Assembly (NCBI GenBank): GCA_001604065.1
Contig: LVAO01000006.1
Location: forward strand, 62,001-126,000
Source: Clostridiales bacterium Firm_09
GTDB lineage: Bacteria > Bacillota > Clostridia > Christensenellales > DTU072
Direction of reading: 5' to 3'
DNA: 64,000 nt
The notes beneath the pieces are model-generated. The model searched no databases and was not told the DNA's origin. It worked only from the letters and a program-made list of their open reading frames with translations. Positions 28,773 through 56,037 of this stretch are shown in pieces. How positions within the stretch are numbered: position 1 is the stretch's first letter; every line of letters starts with the position of its first letter. A program made the translations under genes and the position numbers.

Positions 28773-31700
28773 TTATTCCCAAATGCTTTCGACCACCGTT
28801 TCCATCGTATCGGAATCGTTTGCATAATATGTGGTTGCGAGATATTCCAGACGATCGCGTGTCCAATCCATGATATCTCTCATGGTCTGATATTTCTTTG
28901 TAAAATCCTTGCCCTGCGAAGCGACGGACGCCACTTTGGTTCTGAGTTCCGCAAGGCAAGCGTCCGCTTCCTCTGCGCTCATCAGACCCCTTGCCTTCAG
29001 ATCGTTATAAAGCTGGTCAAGCGAAATAAAGAATTCGGCTTCCTCGATGCTTTCGCAGGAAGTTTCCAGACGGATCCCGCCGTAGAAAGACGAACGGTCC
29101 TCATCCGGGAAATAGATGAACTGCCCGTCCAAAAAGCCATTGAAACCGTAAAAATACAGCGCATTTTCTTTAAGATCCGATCTCCAGAGCCAATAGCCGC
29201 GCAGATTGCCTTCGTAAATCTGCCATTGAGTGACGTGCGTTTCAAAAAGCTGATTGTATCCGAACTGATTGGGATAGGGCAAAAACGGTTGGACGCAGGT
29301 ATAGACCCATGCTTCTTTGCCATTCGCCTCACAAACCTCCAGGACTTTGTCCGTAGTTTTGTAAGAAAGCGGGCAATAGGCATCAAAGGCATCCAGGAAA
29401 ATTTCTGCATACGGGCCCGAAGGGTCCACATTGGCAAGCATTCTGAAGCCGCCCGGATGCTGTGTTTGGATATTGTAATCCGCAATGGCATCGTATCTTG
29501 CCTTGTTATAGATTTCTATCTCAAGCATGTAGAATTTATAAATGTCTTCTCTTTCCATCAGCTTGCCCGTCACCGGATTTTTGGGGAAGAATTGGGACTG
29601 ATCCCATTCGTCCTTCCATTTGATGTAGGCCCTGTCCAGAAGCGTTTCGGTGCTGTTCACGGGATAACGGCTCAGGAACTCTGTGATATGGTATATCCAT
29701 TGATAGACCTGCTTGCCGTAATATTTGCGGTAAAGCTCGGCATTAAATTCTTTGCCGTCTTCACTCCAGTACAAGCTGTTTTTCAATGCGCTGCTGATAA
29801 GATTGAGGTCGTCAAAACGGAAGAACGACAAGCCTTGTTCTTGAATCTGCTTTACCTGATATTGCGCCCAGCCTTCCCATAATTCCGTTCCTGTTTCGGC
29901 TTCTATCCCGTAATTCTTTTTGAATCTGGCTTTTTCGTTCTTTGTTAGCTCTCCGCTCCAGTCCCACGCTCCGTCTATATACCATCTGTCATTCATCAGA
30001 AAGCCTGTTATGCTGTAGTCTCCGGCGTTCATATGGCGCTTGGCATAATAATCGATATATTTTTGTTCCGACGGAGCAGGCAGGGTGAAAAAGTAATGGG
30101 TATTTTGTGGTACAACATAGTTGCCGACTTCAATGTTGATATCGAAAGCGACGGCTTCTTTTTGAGTTTTTATCTTGCCCAATAGGTTGGACTTCGTTTC
30201 AAACGTGAACCGGAGAGTCGCCGTATAGATGCCCGGCGTCTGATCGTAATCTGTAAAGAAATTGAACCAGAATCCTCCTGTCTGACCCGCCTCCATGCTT
30301 TGTTTGTTGACGGGACGGAGAATTTCCGCAAAGGTGTCATCGTATATGTAATCGATATAGCGGATTTCGCAATCGGTGATTCTCTCATAAGAATCATTGC
30401 GTATGCTTACACTTGCGGTTAGATTATGGAGCTGCTCCGTACAGGTAAAAGCAATCTGCTGTGAGCCGTATTCGTTTCTTCCCACCCGTATGGTCGGCAC
30501 ATAATTCTTTTGGTATTTTTTAACAACTTTCATTTCCGGACTGATGCGTTCATAAGAGTCGGTCGTCCAGATAAAATAACCGTCTCCCTCGGCCACCACC
30601 GTGCGGGCATAAGCGTTTTCTGCCGTTAAAACAACCGCGGGTATGCTGATAAGGGAAGCCCCGAGCGACAGCAGCAATGCCCATGCCGCCGCACCTTGAA
30701 TGTGCAGTTTTTTTCTTTGTCGGGGTGCCCGGCTTCTGGAGAGCATTTCTGTTCCTTGCGGGGGGGCAAGAACAGCCTTTCCGGCAGAAACAAAAAGCGT
30801 ATCCGGATGCTTGCGGAAAGAAAAGATATGGAAATCTTTGAAGATATCCATGACAACAGCCAATCCCGCCATGGAGAGAAAAACAATCGTCATAAAATCC
30901 ACAATGCGCATATCAAACATTTCCATATTGGTGGTCGGCGGCCAGCTGTCATACCCTTCCGGGAAGATGAGAAGGTAGCCGATGCCCACGGAAAGATGAG
31001 AAATAAGATATGCGGCAAACCCCAGACCGACCGCACGCGCATTGCGGGGCGCAAAGCTCTCCGCACGGAAGAACTTATAAAACAGGCTGTTGGCAAGAAG
31101 AATGCCGACACAAAGACCCATCAGCGAATAATGCCCGAATGAATGGATGAATTCAAAGGGGAACCAGACGTCCACAAAAGCGCCCGTCTCGTTCGTTGCT
31201 CCGTGGGCGACGCTGTCGCGATAAAGAAAGAATACGGCAGTCATAAAAAGTCCGTACGCTCCCCAATAAAACAATTTTGCAATCAAATCCACCGGTGCGT
31301 TTTTACAATAATATTTTACGACTCCCAAAACGCCCGCATACAGCGAAGCACCCAGCGCAACAAAGAAAAGCTCCTTCATAAAGACTTCCGGCAGATACAT
31401 CACCAGGCAGAAGAAGTAGACGCTCATAAGAAGTCCGCTCATTTCAAAGACTGATTTCAGCAGATGAAAATAGGGATAACCGGCGCCTCTGCGCACAATC
31501 CTTTTTTCTGCCAGGATATCTTTTTGGACGGAATAAATCTCGTTGCGCGCAAAACAAATCAAAATGCCGACAATCAGAATCTCCGCTCCGAGCGTCGCGA
31601 GCTGGAAGCCCCGTATGGTGCCCGGAAGAGGCGCGCCGGGGCCAAGGTCGATTTCTGTACGGTCCAGCAGCCCGTATATACCGCATCCCGCAAGCAAAGC

Positions 31701-32534
31701 AAGTCCCGCAAGCGCCGTCCAGAACACAGCAATATCGCTTTTTGAGGGAGAATATCCCGCAAATCCAAAAAGCCTGCAATAGAATCTGCGCAGGAAGCCC
31801 GCATCGGCCATAGAATTTCTCTTTTTGTAAGGAAGAAGAATCTCTTCCGCAGGCTTCTTAGCATAAGCAGAAAATCTGCTCCGCGCAGAATTATTCAACA
31901 GCGCTTCGGCGCCCTTTTCTCCGGCGGCAAGAAAAAGTGAAACGCCGCCCGCCGCCAAAGCAAGAGCGGTTGCAAAAAGCCCGGCCGCAAGACCGAATGC
32001 GGAAGAATACCTCCAAAGCGCAAGAAATGCGATGCCGAAAACCGCAATGGATGCAGCGCAGGCGCAAATCACCAGAAGATTATCACGCATCCCCTTTTCT
32101 TCCGTATGCTTTCTGCCGTAAGAAGCGGACAGAAGCTGAAAGCTGCCGAGAATGCCCGAAAACAGAAAACCTATAGTGAATCCCGCAGCGTAACCGAAGT
32201 TGCGGAGATACCAGGAAAAGGAGAGGAACCAGCTTTCCTGATTGCCCGCAGAAGTACATGCGAGCGTAATCGCCACAGCCGCAAGCGACAGTGCGGCAAG
32301 TATATCCGAAAAAAGTTTGATGACCATCGTGCTGCGCGGCAGGAGCATGTAGCACAAAAACGATGCAAGAATCAATGCGAACATGACGACATTGATCGTC
32401 CCGAGTGCGGAGTCGCTCCATAAGAACATCGTTTCTATGGGCGAAAACAGTGCTGCACCCAGAACAATCAGCATGGCAAGTGCCGACGCGCCGGAAAGTA
32501 CGGTATAAGCTGTAAATCCCTTATTCAGTTTCAT
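28773..32534 (-). CDS. Polytopic membrane protein fused to extracytoplasmic DUF4091 domain
   Basis: The 1253-residue protein starts at ATG 32534 behind GGAGGG. Residues 1 to about 600 contain a dozen or so hydrophobic segments in a multi-pass membrane module. A further segment near 640-665 (WALLLSLGASLISIPAVVL) leads into a large C-terminal domain. That domain matches the DUF4091 glycoside-hydrolase-like family: AYCPLSYKTTDKVLEVCEAN, WVYTCVQPFLPYPNQF, GYWLWRSD, and the final IRLETSCESIEEAEFF. DUF4091 proteins are usually secreted and associated with glycan breakdown. Fusion to a polytopic module is unusual. The membrane part is not a transporter family I recognise. Confidence 0.8.
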   Translation of the reverse strand: MKLNKGFTAYTVLSGASALAMLIVLGAALFSPIETMFLWSDSALGTINVVMFALILASFLCYMLLPRSTMVIKLFSDILAALSLAAVAITLACTSAGNQESWFLSFSWYLRNFGYAAGFTIGFLFSGILGSFQLLSASYGRKHTEEKGMRDNLLVICACAASIAVFGIAFLALWRYSSAFGLAAGLFATALALAAGGVSLFLAAGEKGAEALLNNSARSRFSAYAKKPAEEILLPYKKRNSMADAGFLRRFYCRLFGFAGYSPSKSDIAVFWTALAGLALLAGCGIYGLLDRTEIDLGPGAPLPGTIRGFQLATLGAEILIVGILICFARNEIYSVQKDILAEKRIVRRGAGYPYFHLLKSVFEMSGLLMSVYFFCLVMYLPEVFMKELFFVALGASLYAGVLGVVKYYCKNAPVDLIAKLFYWGAYGLFMTAVFFLYRDSVAHGATNETGAFVDVWFPFEFIHSFGHYSLMGLCVGILLANSLFYKFFRAESFAPRNARAVGLGFAAYLISHLSVGIGYLLIFPEGYDSWPPTTNMEMFDMRIVDFMTIVFLSMAGLAVVMDIFKDFHIFSFRKHPDTLFVSAGKAVLAPPQGTEMLSRSRAPRQRKKLHIQGAAAWALLLSLGASLISIPAVVLTAENAYARTVVAEGDGYFIWTTDSYERISPEMKVVKKYQKNYVPTIRVGRNEYGSQQIAFTCTEQLHNLTASVSIRNDSYERITDCEIRYIDYIYDDTFAEILRPVNKQSMEAGQTGGFWFNFFTDYDQTPGIYTATLRFTFETKSNLLGKIKTQKEAVAFDINIEVGNYVVPQNTHYFFTLPAPSEQKYIDYYAKRHMNAGDYSITGFLMNDRWYIDGAWDWSGELTKNEKARFKKNYGIEAETGTELWEGWAQYQVKQIQEQGLSFFRFDDLNLISSALKNSLYWSEDGKEFNAELYRKYYGKQVYQWIYHITEFLSRYPVNSTETLLDRAYIKWKDEWDQSQFFPKNPVTGKLMEREDIYKFYMLEIEIYNKARYDAIADYNIQTQHPGGFRMLANVDPSGPYAEIFLDAFDAYCPLSYKTTDKVLEVCEANGKEAWVYTCVQPFLPYPNQFGYNQLFETHVTQWQIYEGNLRGYWLWRSDLKENALYFYGFNGFLDGQFIYFPDEDRSSFYGGIRLETSCESIEEAEFFISLDQLYNDLKARGLMSAEEADACLAELRTKVASVASQGKDFTKKYQTMRDIMDWTRDRLEYLATTYYANDSDTMETVVESIWE

Positions 32535-32563
32535 TGTTGGCCCTCCGATAATAAACAAATCTT

Positions 32564-34822: not shown

Positions 34823-34997
34823 CTTCCTGCAAGGTATTTGTGAAGTTTGTCCTTAAGGAAACACACTGTTTGCCCTTGTTTATGGTAAAATATTATCATC
34901 AACTGTTACGGGTGACCTGATGAAAAACCAGCTTTCCTTTGCTGATATCGAGCAATCCGCCAAGACCAGAGTTATGATTTGTGAAGTGGTTCCTTAA
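34823..34997 (+). mobile_element. Transposon relic with remnant of a transposase N terminus
   Basis: The segment carries two direct copies of a terminal sequence: ATTTGTGAAG-TTTG-TCCTTAA at its left and ATTTGTGAAGTGGTTCCTTAA at its right (34976-34997). Between them an ATG at 34921 opens MKNQLSFADIEQSAKTR, like the start of IS5-type DDE transposases, then runs straight into the right end and stops. The layout resembles the relic at 53976-54182. It is an internally deleted, non-autonomous remnant. Confidence 0.6.
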
Positions 34998-35440
34998 GTT
35001 TTTTCGTAGGTTTCCTTTGCATTGCGGATGATGGACAATGCCTCGGACAGAGATTTTTCTGCCCTGCCAAGAAGGACAAGCACATCGCTCCGGACATCTC
35101 CTTCCACACGCGCCTTGAAGTCAAGAGCTTGTCTGCGTATCGCCTCGGCCTCTGCTTCCGCCTGCTTGATGATGCCGTGATCGGATAACAGAGCGTCCGC
35201 CTTCTGCTGTGCCGCCATGATAATGGCTTCGGACCGCGCAGCATCCTCCTGCCGCTTTCTTTCTGATGCCGCTATCAGCTGACGCGCTTCACGCACCATA
35301 TCCGGCAGATTTTTGCGGATGCGGTCAACCGCGGCAAGCAATGCATCGCCGTCTATGATGACTCCGCCGCCGAACAGCGGTTTTTTGCCGTCATGGATTT
35401 CCTGCTCCATTTCTATGAGAATATCTTCTATATCTTCCAT
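34994..35440 (-). CDS. Coiled-coil protein downstream of CoaD (unknown function)
   Basis: I do not recognise a defined family. The 148 residues are mostly charged helix with heptad-like spacing (about 40-145), rich in A, E, K and R, such as ASERKRQEDAARSEAIIMAA, reminiscent of stalk-type coiled coils (ATP synthase b/E-like) annotated beside coaD in Clostridia. The Shine-Dalgarno AAAGGAG is good and the start overlaps the rsmD-coaD stop by 13 bases. The TAA stop lies inside the right end of a transposon relic, so the original C terminus may have been altered. Confidence 0.7.
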   Translation of the reverse strand: MEDIEDILIEMEQEIHDGKKPLFGGGVIIDGDALLAAVDRIRKNLPDMVREARQLIAASERKRQEDAARSEAIIMAAQQKADALLSDHGIIKQAEAEAEAIRRQALDFKARVEGDVRSDVLVLLGRAEKSLSEALSIIRNAKETYEKT

Positions 35441-36441
35441 ATGCGCGCTCCTTTTATCTCTTCCGCAACGCCAGGGTCTACGAGACCGGAAATGTCGATG
35501 CCTTCCTGCACATCCTTTTTTACCAGCGTACTGCTGATTTCTTTATCCTTGGCGGGTATGAGAATGGTTTCTATGCCTCCGTTTTTCTTATTGAATTCCG
35601 CCATTTCTGTTTCGTAAACGAGATCTTTCTCATTGCGGTATCCGCGGACTATCGTACGTATGCCGAGCCTGCGGCAAAAATCTATTGCCATGCCCGGATA
35701 ATCGCGTATTTTGACGCGTTTACCATATTCCCTTGTAGAAAGTTCGGCAAAACGGATCCGCTTTTTCAAATCAAAACGGACCTCTTTGTCCGGATTGATT
35801 AAAAAAACAATATAAACCAGGTCGAACCGCATGAGCGCCTGCTCCACAAGATATTTATGGCCCAACGTGAACGGATCGAAGGTCCCCGTTACGGCCGCCT
35901 TGGTCATCTTTTTGATAATATCGATGGTCGTAGTACCGTATTTCCTGCTGTCGAATACAGCAAATTCATCGGGCAATACATACGCATCGTTGTCTGTGCT
36001 GCGTTCGAGTACGATTGTGCCCCCGGCGGACAATACGTCTTTATCAAGAATGGTCTTGAGAATACCCGCTTCCAATCCCTCTTTATATGGAGGGTCCAGA
36101 AAAATCAAATCAAACTTCCGTCCCGCGGCTCCCAGCTTAGACAGTGCAGTCTTATAATCCGCCGCATAGACCTCCGCATGGATTCCACGAAGATTCTCTT
36201 TGACTGCATCAAGAGAATCCCTGGATTTATCAACAAACACAGCTTCTTTTGCCCCACGCGACAAGGCCTCTATGCCAAGCGAGCCGCTTCCGGCAAACAA
36301 GTCAAGAACCGTGCTGCCCTCAACCTCCGTCATCAGAAGATCAAAAACAGCCTCCTTCACCTTGTCGGTTGTCGGTCGAACAGTCCGACCCGGCGGTGCG
36401 ATGAGCGGACGCCCCTTATATTTGCCGGAGATCACTCTCAT
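35428..36441 (-). CDS. rsmD-coaD: RsmD-CoaD fusion: 16S rRNA G966 methyltransferase and phosphopantetheine adenylyltransferase
   Basis: One 337-residue frame holds two full enzymes. Residues 1 to about 178 are RsmD (MRVISGKYKGRPLIAP, LDLFAGSGSLGIEA for AdoMet, FLDPPY catalytic motif), which methylates G966 of 16S rRNA. Residues 179-337 are a complete CoaD (VTGTFDPFTLGHKYLVEQAL with the T/HxGH nucleotidyl-transfer motif, VRGYRNEKDLVYETEMA, EISSTLVK), which makes dephospho-CoA. The genes are normally adjacent but separate. There is no stop or internal Shine-Dalgarno at the junction (ATG at 35907). I start at ATG 36441 because GGAGG touches the upstream TTG. Confidence 0.92.
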   Translation of the reverse strand: MRVISGKYKGRPLIAPPGRTVRPTTDKVKEAVFDLLMTEVEGSTVLDLFAGSGSLGIEALSRGAKEAVFVDKSRDSLDAVKENLRGIHAEVYAADYKTALSKLGAAGRKFDLIFLDPPYKEGLEAGILKTILDKDVLSAGGTIVLERSTDNDAYVLPDEFAVFDSRKYGTTTIDIIKKMTKAAVTGTFDPFTLGHKYLVEQALMRFDLVYIVFLINPDKEVRFDLKKRIRFAELSTREYGKRVKIRDYPGMAIDFCRRLGIRTIVRGYRNEKDLVYETEMAEFNKKNGGIETILIPAKDKEISSTLVKKDVQEGIDISGLVDPGVAEEIKGARIWKI

Positions 36442-36547
36442 TGAATTGTTCAACCTCCTTTGTCAGACAAGTATATGACAGAACCATGCAATCAGAAAAA
36501 AGCCATCCGGATGCAAATATGACAACGCAAGGTTTTCTTTCTTGAAT

Positions 36548-43085: not shown

Positions 43086-43634
43086 TCAGCAGTATTTCTT
43101 TGCTGTTTCCTTAAATACAAACTTTTTTAATGGGGCATAAAGAAACAGAATAATTGCTGCATTGATTGCGAACACAATCGGCTGTGTCGTCATACGCACG
43201 CCAAGATAGACCCAGAAGGTACGCCCCCGGGAATAAACCTGAAAAAGAGCAAACGTATTGAGAAATACTGTGCAGATGATAAAAACCAGCGCAAAGGATA
43301 GGAAAATATTGAAGATAGGGTTCAGTTTGACGAATCTGAAAACCAGTCCCGGGATAAGCCCGATCAGCGTGGAGGATACCGTAATCAACGGCATCCATGC
43401 CAGACCTTGGGAATGAATCAGGAATCCAAGAATGTCACCGAGCAGGCCGGTAAGGAATCCCGCCAAAGGCCCCAAAAAAATACCCGCGATAAAACACGGT
43501 ATATAGCTGAATGTAAGCTTCGTCCCGAAGGCGGATACCGACACATCCAGACTGTTTAGAACGACATTGACCGCGACGAGAAGAGCGGTATACACAAGTT
43601 TTTTTGTGGGCATACCTAAAATACGTTGTTTCAT
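43086..43634 (-). CDS. folT: Folate ECF transporter S component FolT
   Basis: FolT is the folate-binding membrane subunit of an energy-coupling-factor transporter. The 182 residues start MKQRILGMPTKKLVYTALLV at 43634 behind a perfect AAAGGAGG. Five or six membrane segments follow, with the S-component patterns FGTKLTFSYIPCFIAGIFLG and GFLTGLLGDILGFL. Assignment to folate rests on these plus the THF riboswitch directly upstream. The ATPase and EcfT subunits are not in the window. A shared ECF module elsewhere is expected for group-II transporters. Confidence 0.9.
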   Translation of the reverse strand: MKQRILGMPTKKLVYTALLVAVNVVLNSLDVSVSAFGTKLTFSYIPCFIAGIFLGPLAGFLTGLLGDILGFLIHSQGLAWMPLITVSSTLIGLIPGLVFRFVKLNPIFNIFLSFALVFIICTVFLNTFALFQVYSRGRTFWVYLGVRMTTQPIVFAINAAIILFLYAPLKKFVFKETAKKYC

Positions 43635-43693
43635 CAAAAAAGCCTCCTTTTTAATAGGAGAGCTCCATACCGAATGACGGGCGCGCACCGTCC

Positions 43694-43828
43694 ATAGGCA
43701 ACGGATGCAGCGCACCACCGCAGGCTGAAAACACGATGTTTGTGTTCTTTGCCATTCGTCTCCGGACAACATCCCATTCCGGAGCACTATGGAAGCTTTC
43801 GCTTCCGGCGCGGTACGCTTACTCTGCT
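43694..43828 (-). promoter_or_regulatory. Tetrahydrofolate (THF) riboswitch
   Basis: On the minus strand the leader contains CTCCGGAATGGGATGTTGTC (about 43784-43765) closing as CTCCGG/CCGGAG, and downstream TGCGGTGGTGCGCTGCATCC ending near 43700. GAATGGGATG, GCGGTG and GCATCC are the conserved joining and pseudoknot parts of THF-I riboswitches. The long-range pairing of the 5' GAGTAAGCGTACCGC arm was not verified by folding. CTCC (43671 region) can pair with the GGAG of the folT Shine-Dalgarno across TATTAAAAA, suggesting control of translation. Confidence 0.87.
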
Positions 43829-54536: not shown

Positions 54537-54638
54537 ATGGACAACAATGCAAACTACAACACCTATTTCTTTCGATGGTGCCGTCCGCAGCAAATCGACC
54601 GTATCCCCGCAGCCATTACCGCCAAAATTATTTTATGA
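54537..54638 (+). CDS. 33-codon leader ORF between T-box and trpB
   Basis: AAAGGAG precedes ATG at 54537, opening MDNNANYNTYFFRWCRPQQI and ending ...AAITAKIIL. It has a single Trp (W14) in a YFFRW cluster, Tyr/Phe-rich. The TGA stop (54636-54638) overlaps the AAGGAG Shine-Dalgarno of trpB, so translation of the leader could govern trpB start. It is downstream of the T-box terminator, not part of a second attenuator that I can see. It may be a trp leader peptide, but that is inference from position and composition. Confidence 0.6.
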   Translation: MDNNANYNTYFFRWCRPQQIDRIPAAITAKIIL

Positions 54639-54651
54639 AGGAGTTATCAAT

Positions 54652-56037
54652 ATGAATAAAAAAGAAATACCCACCAAAATCTACCTGCGCGAAGACGAAA
54701 TGCCAAAAAATTGGTACAATATGCGCGCCGACATGAAGGAGAAGCATCCGCCCTTTCTTCATCCCGGCACGCTGAAGCCCTGTACGGCAGAAGACCTCTA
54801 TCCCGTTTTCTGCAAGAGCCTTGTCGAACAGGAGCTCGATCAGGAAACCACGCTGATTCCCATTCCCGAGGGCATTCTGGATTTCTATAAAATGTACCGC
54901 CCCTCTCCGCTGGTGCGCGCCTACTGTCTTGAAAAGGCTTTGGGCACCCCTGCCGAAATCTACTATAAATTCGAAGGCAATAACACTTCCGGCTCACATA
55001 AACTCAATTCCGCCGTTCCCCAGGTTTACTATGCAAAAGAAGAAGGCCTCACCTCACTTACAACCGAAACGGGCGCCGGACAATGGGGCACCGCGCTTTC
55101 GATGGCGTGCGCTTTTTACGGCATCAATCTGACCGTCTATATGGTCAAAGTGAGCAGCGAACAAAAACCTTACAGAAAAGCCGTCATGGAAACATACGGA
55201 GCAAAAGTTATCCCTTCTCCTTCCGACACGACCCGTGTTGGCAAAAAGATTCTGGAAGCCAATCCCACAACGGGAGGCTCTCTGGGCTGCGCCATCAGCG
55301 AAGCCATCGAAACCGCAGTCACAACCGACAAATGCCGCTACGTTCTGGGCAGCGTGCTCGACCACGTCATCCTGCATCAGTCCATTATCGGACAGGAATG
55401 CAAAATCGCGCTTGACAAATACGGCGTCAAGCCCGATATCATCATCGGCTGTGCGGGCGGCGGCTCCAATCTCGCGGGTCTGATTGCTCCCTTCATTGGA
55501 GAGAAAATCAAAGGCAAATCCAATACCCGCTTTATCGCGGTAGAACCCGCTTCCTGTCCCTCCCTGACCCGCGGCAAGTATGCCTACGACTTCGGCGACA
55601 CCGGAAAAATGACTCCCCTTGTCAAAATGTATACCCTCGGCAATGGTTTCATGCCCTCTGCCAACCATGCGGGCGGACTCCGTTATCACGGCATGAGCCC
55701 CATCCTGTCCAAGCTCTACGATGACGGATATATGGAAGCCAAAGCCTATGAGCAAACCGCGGTCTTTGAAGCGGCAGTCAAATTTGCCAGAACCGAAGGC
55801 ATCCTCCCCGCTCCCGAATCCTCCCACGCAATCAAAGCAGCAATGGATGAGGCGTTGGAATGCAAAAAAACCGGCGAAAAGAAAGTAATCCTCTTCGGAC
55901 TTTCCGGCACAGGATACTTTGATCTTTCTGCATATATGGCATACAACAAGAAAACCATGACGGATTACATTCCCACCGATGCCGATCTCGAACAAGGATT
56001 TGCGTCAATTCCCCGGATTCCCGGCATCAATGACTAG
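54652..56037 (+). CDS. trpB: TrpB-like (TrpB2-type) tryptophan synthase beta chain
   Basis: Tryptophan synthase beta joins indole and serine using pyridoxal phosphate. The 461 residues are longer than TrpB1 and fit the TrpB2 group. The N-terminal extension is followed by YYKFEGNNTSGSHKLNSA with PLP-lysine K117, TETGAGQWGTALSMA, and the phosphate loop GCAGGGSNLAG. LSGTGYFDLSAYM closes the active site. I start at ATG 54652 behind AAGGAG, rather than an in-frame codon within the leader. Trp T-box control, absence of trpA and presence of IOR (indole chemistry) hint at indole salvage; a terminator follows. Confidence 0.92.
   Translation: MNKKEIPTKIYLREDEMPKNWYNMRADMKEKHPPFLHPGTLKPCTAEDLYPVFCKSLVEQELDQETTLIPIPEGILDFYKMYRPSPLVRAYCLEKALGTPAEIYYKFEGNNTSGSHKLNSAVPQVYYAKEEGLTSLTTETGAGQWGTALSMACAFYGINLTVYMVKVSSEQKPYRKAVMETYGAKVIPSPSDTTRVGKKILEANPTTGGSLGCAISEAIETAVTTDKCRYVLGSVLDHVILHQSIIGQECKIALDKYGVKPDIIIGCAGGGSNLAGLIAPFIGEKIKGKSNTRFIAVEPASCPSLTRGKYAYDFGDTGKMTPLVKMYTLGNGFMPSANHAGGLRYHGMSPILSKLYDDGYMEAKAYEQTAVFEAAVKFARTEGILPAPESSHAIKAAMDEALECKKTGEKKVILFGLSGTGYFDLSAYMAYNKKTMTDYIPTDADLEQGFASIPRIPGIND

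Follow-up and report, generated by a model that had tools for sequence, protein, structure and literature searches.

Structure of the fused rsmD-coaD gene

An open reading frame that carries both an RsmD and a CoaD sequence raises the question of whether the two enzymes are made as one inherited polypeptide, are released separately from one transcript, or are joined only by an error or a recent accident. Such a frame lies on the minus strand of the window, the whole stretch of 64,000 nucleotides analysed here. Translation from the ATG at position 36441 to the stop codon at 35430-35428 gave 337 amino acids without interruption, and the mechanical open reading frame call was longer, starting from a TTG at 36453 (341 amino acids). 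In NCBIfam searches, residues 2-177 matched the RsmD model TIGR00095 with 165.6 bits (curated cut-off, 117.5), and residues 182-330 matched the CoaD model TIGR01510 with 109 bits (curated cut-off, 103.3). The Pfam assignments of both halves were concordant. The proposal in the initial annotation of an in-frame fusion between two complete, commonly adjacent enzymes is upheld by the single frame and by both scores over their cut-offs. The positions of the features are listed in Table 1. No NCBIfam or Pfam family was detected at E 0.001 for the 148-amino-acid product of the downstream gene.

Table 1. Positions of the fused gene, its parts, and adjoining features in the window
Feature	Position	Strand	Basis or remark
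Fused rsmD-coaD gene	35428..36441	-	337 aa plus stop (coding 35431-36441); open frame, translation
RsmD domain, residues 1-177	35911..36441	-	TIGR00095 above cut-off, PF03602; fold as 2fhp, 2fpo, 6m1c
RsmD motif DPPY, residues 116-119	36085..36096	-	Conservation over 75 fused copies
Junction, residues 178-180, with non-conserved Met179	35902..35910	-	Model strands and comparison of fused copies
CoaD domain, residues 179-337	35431..35907	-	TIGR01510 above cut-off, PF01467; fold as 7yxz, 5o08, 3nba
CoaD motif TLGH (TxGH), residues 192-195	35857..35868	-	Conservation over 75 fused copies
Shine-Dalgarno-like AGGAGG of the fused gene	36454..36459	-	12 bases 5' of ATG 36441
Downstream gene, 148 aa (context only)	34994..35440	-	Overlaps the end of the fused gene by 13 bases

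The N-terminal half resembles RsmD (YhhF), the 16S rRNA G966 N2-methyltransferase, in its full-length match and in its fold (2fhp, 2fpo, and 6m1c), whereas the solved RsmD chains correspond to this half of the fused protein only. The C-terminal half resembles CoaD (KdtB), the phosphopantetheine adenylyltransferase, in its full-length match and in the fold of 7yxz, 5o08, and 6b7a. On the other hand, it differs from CoaD in being preceded by RsmD and, in most of the relatives, in the loss of its own start signals.

The RsmD half of the window protein contains DLFAGSGSLGIEA and DPPY, and the CoaD half contains TGTFDPFTLGH, NPDK, VRGYR, and ISST, which we take to be the motifs of the respective enzymes; the catalytic motifs previously claimed for both domains are present. 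Residue conservation was counted in 75 fused copies, a copy cut by a contig end being excluded. D116, P118, G186, P190, T192, H195, G267, and R269 were invariant, and D47, G51, and G53 of the SAM-binding motif were also kept in all 75. The other positions of DPPY were retained in 71 (P117) and 73 (Y119) copies. G194 of TLGH was retained in 74, residue 193 being variable, and S303 and S304 of ISST in 72 and 69, respectively. K219 was altered in two copies and R266 in one. To judge from the sequence, the fused protein would be expected to have two working active sites.

Conservation of the fusion within the family

The initial annotation regarded the fusion as a possible recent stop loss and suggested inspection for an artefactual frameshift at 35900-35910, together with a survey of related genomes. 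In the survey, the junction was open in 37 of 40 genomes from the window's own family (f1), that of the window included, and the fusion was also found in three other families. The 36 other copies in the family, one of them truncated by a contig end inside CoaD, showed 42-65% identity to the window protein. The three exceptions were all at most 84% complete; two (G060 and G061) had no RsmD-CoaD match, and one (G031) had a weak match elsewhere only. Four genomes (G026, G029, G011, and G020) had been flagged with an internal stop and were yet open across both domains; therefore, a stop flag is no proof of separate genes. Because no stop interrupts the junction in 37 of the 40 genomes, the fusion is neither artefactual nor recent, and neither the frameshift nor the stop loss was borne out. 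A faulty assembly, a sequencing error, or a stop loss acquired very recently by this strain would fit the first report from a single genome, but the presence of the same fusion in 36 other family genomes reduces the probability of any of these to practically nil. The gene appears to be an old fusion inherited within the family, not a recent accident.

In the genome of the window (32 contigs, 79% complete), the fused gene alone exceeded the CoaD and RsmD cut-offs. A second, weak RsmD hit (residues 39-119) was located within a 397-amino-acid frame that is probably another methyltransferase, and a match to TIGR00152, presumably CoaE, was also found. Among 38 family genomes, the fused frame was the best RsmD match in 36, in all of which it exceeded the TIGR00095 cut-off. 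It was also the best CoaD match in 36 and exceeded the TIGR01510 cut-off in 30. The six fused CoaD domains below 103.3 bits scored 98.5, 98.2, 95.9, 94.7, 90.9, and 64.2, the last being the copy at a contig end. The profile search of these 38 genomes detected no second copy of RsmD or CoaD over the cut-off.

As a separate observation, many family genomes have a weak hit to the first ~70 positions of the CoaD profile within a frame of ~370-390 amino acids (for example, G011:C111:45540-45758 and G019:C23:17204-17428). This is the size of NadD joined to another domain, and a second fusion is possible.

Start signals at the junction

One transcript might still yield two proteins if translation started at Met179, or if a protease cut at the junction, so that free CoaD was released. 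The interval from ten codons before to three codons after the first CoaD position was scanned for ATG, GTG, and TTG codons and for a Shine-Dalgarno-like site. A total of 76 fused copies and 114 separate pairs were counted, excluding L002 (no CoaD), L182 (best matches on opposite strands), and L114 (a copy); the 114 pairs include many close relatives and are not independent of one another. The window and L004 of the same genus are the only 2 of the 76 fused copies with Met at position 179, and an ATG with or without a site occurs in 9 of the 76, compared with 101 of the 114 separate pairs. However, no Shine-Dalgarno-like site precedes Met179 in the window, and an ATG combined with such a site occurred in 1 of 76 fused copies versus 67 of 114 separate pairs. 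Any of the three codons was present in 44 of 76 versus 114 of 114, and any of them with a site in 4 of 76 versus 74 of 114. As a control, a Shine-Dalgarno-like site was found upstream of the RsmD start in 54 of the 76 fused copies.

These counts indicate that the start signals used by separate coaD genes have mostly been lost from the fused gene. They agree with the earlier claim that the junction lacks an internal Shine-Dalgarno sequence. Because an ATG with a site is so much rarer in the fused copies than in the separate pairs, internal initiation is unlikely, and Met179, which had been suggested as a possible start, is unlikely to serve as one.

Predicted structure of the junction

An AlphaFold2 monomer model was computed from alignment A2, in which 40 of 41 rows were separate genes read through (mean pLDDT, 92.6; pTM, 0.80). 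The last RsmD strand (residues 171-178) and the first CoaD strand (181-186) were separated by two residues in the model and lay in blocks with mean pLDDT values of 93 and 95. Such a joint would be a poor target for a protease. The initial annotation had suggested that fused RsmD domains would decorate a CoaD hexamer; the monomer model shows that the two domains are joined by a very short connection only. The production of two proteins from the fused gene, by internal initiation or by cleavage, is judged very unlikely.

The spacing between the conserved glycines G169 and G186 was 16 residues in 57 of the 75 fused copies, 17 in 16, and 19 in 2, both of the last belonging to family f32. In fold comparison, the two halves of the model matched solved RsmD and CoaD structures, respectively, and none of the chains listed covered both halves. 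The solved CoaD chains 3nba, 3k9w, and 8zn2 carry approximately 15-21 residues ahead of the matched region; an N-terminal extension alone therefore does not block CoaD folding.

Distribution across the order, class, and phylum

Among the matches listed, at least 59 of 297 genomes sampled from the order carried the fusion: 20 of 20 in f1, at least 19 of 21 in f6, at least 18 of 21 in f3, and at least 2 of 21 in f32. DNA was read for these 59 and for the 26 other full-length matches listed outside f1, and the fusion was absent from all 26. In samples of 391 class and 299 phylum genomes, no unbroken full-length match besides that of the window was found among the matches listed. All other stop-flagged full-length matches listed were also read (62 from the class, 33 from the phylum, and 6 from the order), together with four unfused-looking f32 genomes. 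All 105 of these additional loci had separate genes, the 95 outside the order (62 class plus 33 phylum) included. As far as seen among the matches listed, the fusion is restricted to one order.

The best 80 of 348 loci from a scan of named genomes all had rsmD and coaD as separate neighbours, and the named matches belonged to the Bacillota wherever the phylum was readable. All 80 matches lay in one frame, since the scan favours matches that continue in one frame, and their frame statistics were not used. The separate Bacillota neighbours have the same order and strand as the two halves of the fusion but retain a stop and a start between the genes, the distance from the rsmD stop to the coaD start being -8 to 123 bases in the 114 separate pairs. 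In addition, RsmD matches were noted within frames of 516 and 511 amino acids (G772:C2:341032-341562 and G849:C1:2022644-2023198); these may be other RsmD fusions or merely long open frames.

No report of an RsmD-CoaD fusion was found in the open-licence literature; domain-architecture databases were outside the scope of this search, and the fusion may be recorded elsewhere. Passages of two papers treat rsmD and coaD as distinct genes, with no fusion (PMC9717686; PMC6411480).

Number of origins

A quick tree was built from 105 of 127 rows, 57 of them fused, after rows at least 78% identical to one already kept had been dropped. L002, L114 (a copy of L031), L118, and L182 were omitted beforehand, and the named loci were represented by 18 of the 80. 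At least five changes of the fused state were required on this tree. A single clade of all fused copies was rejected (p-AU 0.0006); therefore, the fusion arose repeatedly, or was lost and then regained. On the other hand, grouping the fused copies of f1, f3, and f6 in one clade was not rejected (p 0.305), nor was grouping those of f1 and f6 (p 0.603). Since these clades stand, and since the groups were chosen after the tree had been seen, no number of origins is claimed within the three families; the fusion arose in the ancestry of f1 and is perhaps shared with f3 and f6. The fused f32 pair (G160 and G276) adjoined G172 of the same genus and was nested among the separate genes of its own family. 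For this reason a second fusion is the preferred interpretation of the pair, and its phylogenetic position suggests that it is probably a separate event.

Proposed role of the fused protein

We consider the product most probably to be a bifunctional housekeeping enzyme, translated as a single polypeptide from one start and derived from the fusion of an ancestral neighbouring pair, with no cross-talk between the two activities (probability, approximately 0.8). The stop and start between neighbouring rsmD and coaD would have been lost in an ancestor and the fusion then inherited. The N-terminal half would be expected to methylate G966 of 16S rRNA and the C-terminal half to adenylylate 4'-phosphopantetheine. 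The protein would retain both activities and would assemble through CoaD. Its benefit, if any, would lie in a single start and a one-to-one output rather than in regulation between the sites.

A coupling of the activities, in which CoA or its precursors alter RsmD activity or RsmD carries CoaD to the ribosome, was also considered. The almost constant length of the joint across a long divergence speaks for it, as does the rejection of a single origin. However, the constant length may merely reflect the two flanking strands, and a chance fusion is easy, given how often rsmD and coaD occur as separate neighbours in the phylum. The short joint and repeated gain are thus compatible with coupling and equally with a simple fusion of neighbours, and we regard coupling as unlikely. 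A more specific proposal, that the near-linkerless joint, almost constant in length and apparently acquired repeatedly, fixes RsmD on a CoaD hexamer so that CoA supply tunes late 30S assembly, seems more doubtful still.

In the animal CoA synthase, a phosphopantetheine adenylyltransferase domain is fused to dephospho-CoA kinase, which catalyses the following step in CoA synthesis. The bifunctional enzyme proposed here is similar in that the adenylyltransferase is joined to another enzyme, but the partner in animals is not an rRNA methylase. The fused gene offers a clean and apparently repeated case of an essential CoaD that has no start of its own and depends on translation of the upstream rRNA methylase. 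In these families, annotation that assigns a single domain may list rsmD or coaD as absent. Were the joint to couple the two activities, a link between CoA supply and ribosome maturation could be tested directly.

Other features of the window

A 1261-amino-acid frame with a TTG start is located at 28773-32558 on the minus strand; numerous hydrophobic segments were seen by eye in its N-terminal half, and no Pfam family was detected in it at E 1e-8. A THF riboswitch (RF01831; 43697-43828, minus strand) overlaps and precedes the frame of an ECF transporter S component (43086-43787), which is probably a folate transporter gene. A T-box leader (RF00230; 54236-54479, plus strand) is located upstream of a pyridoxal-phosphate enzyme gene (54547-56037).
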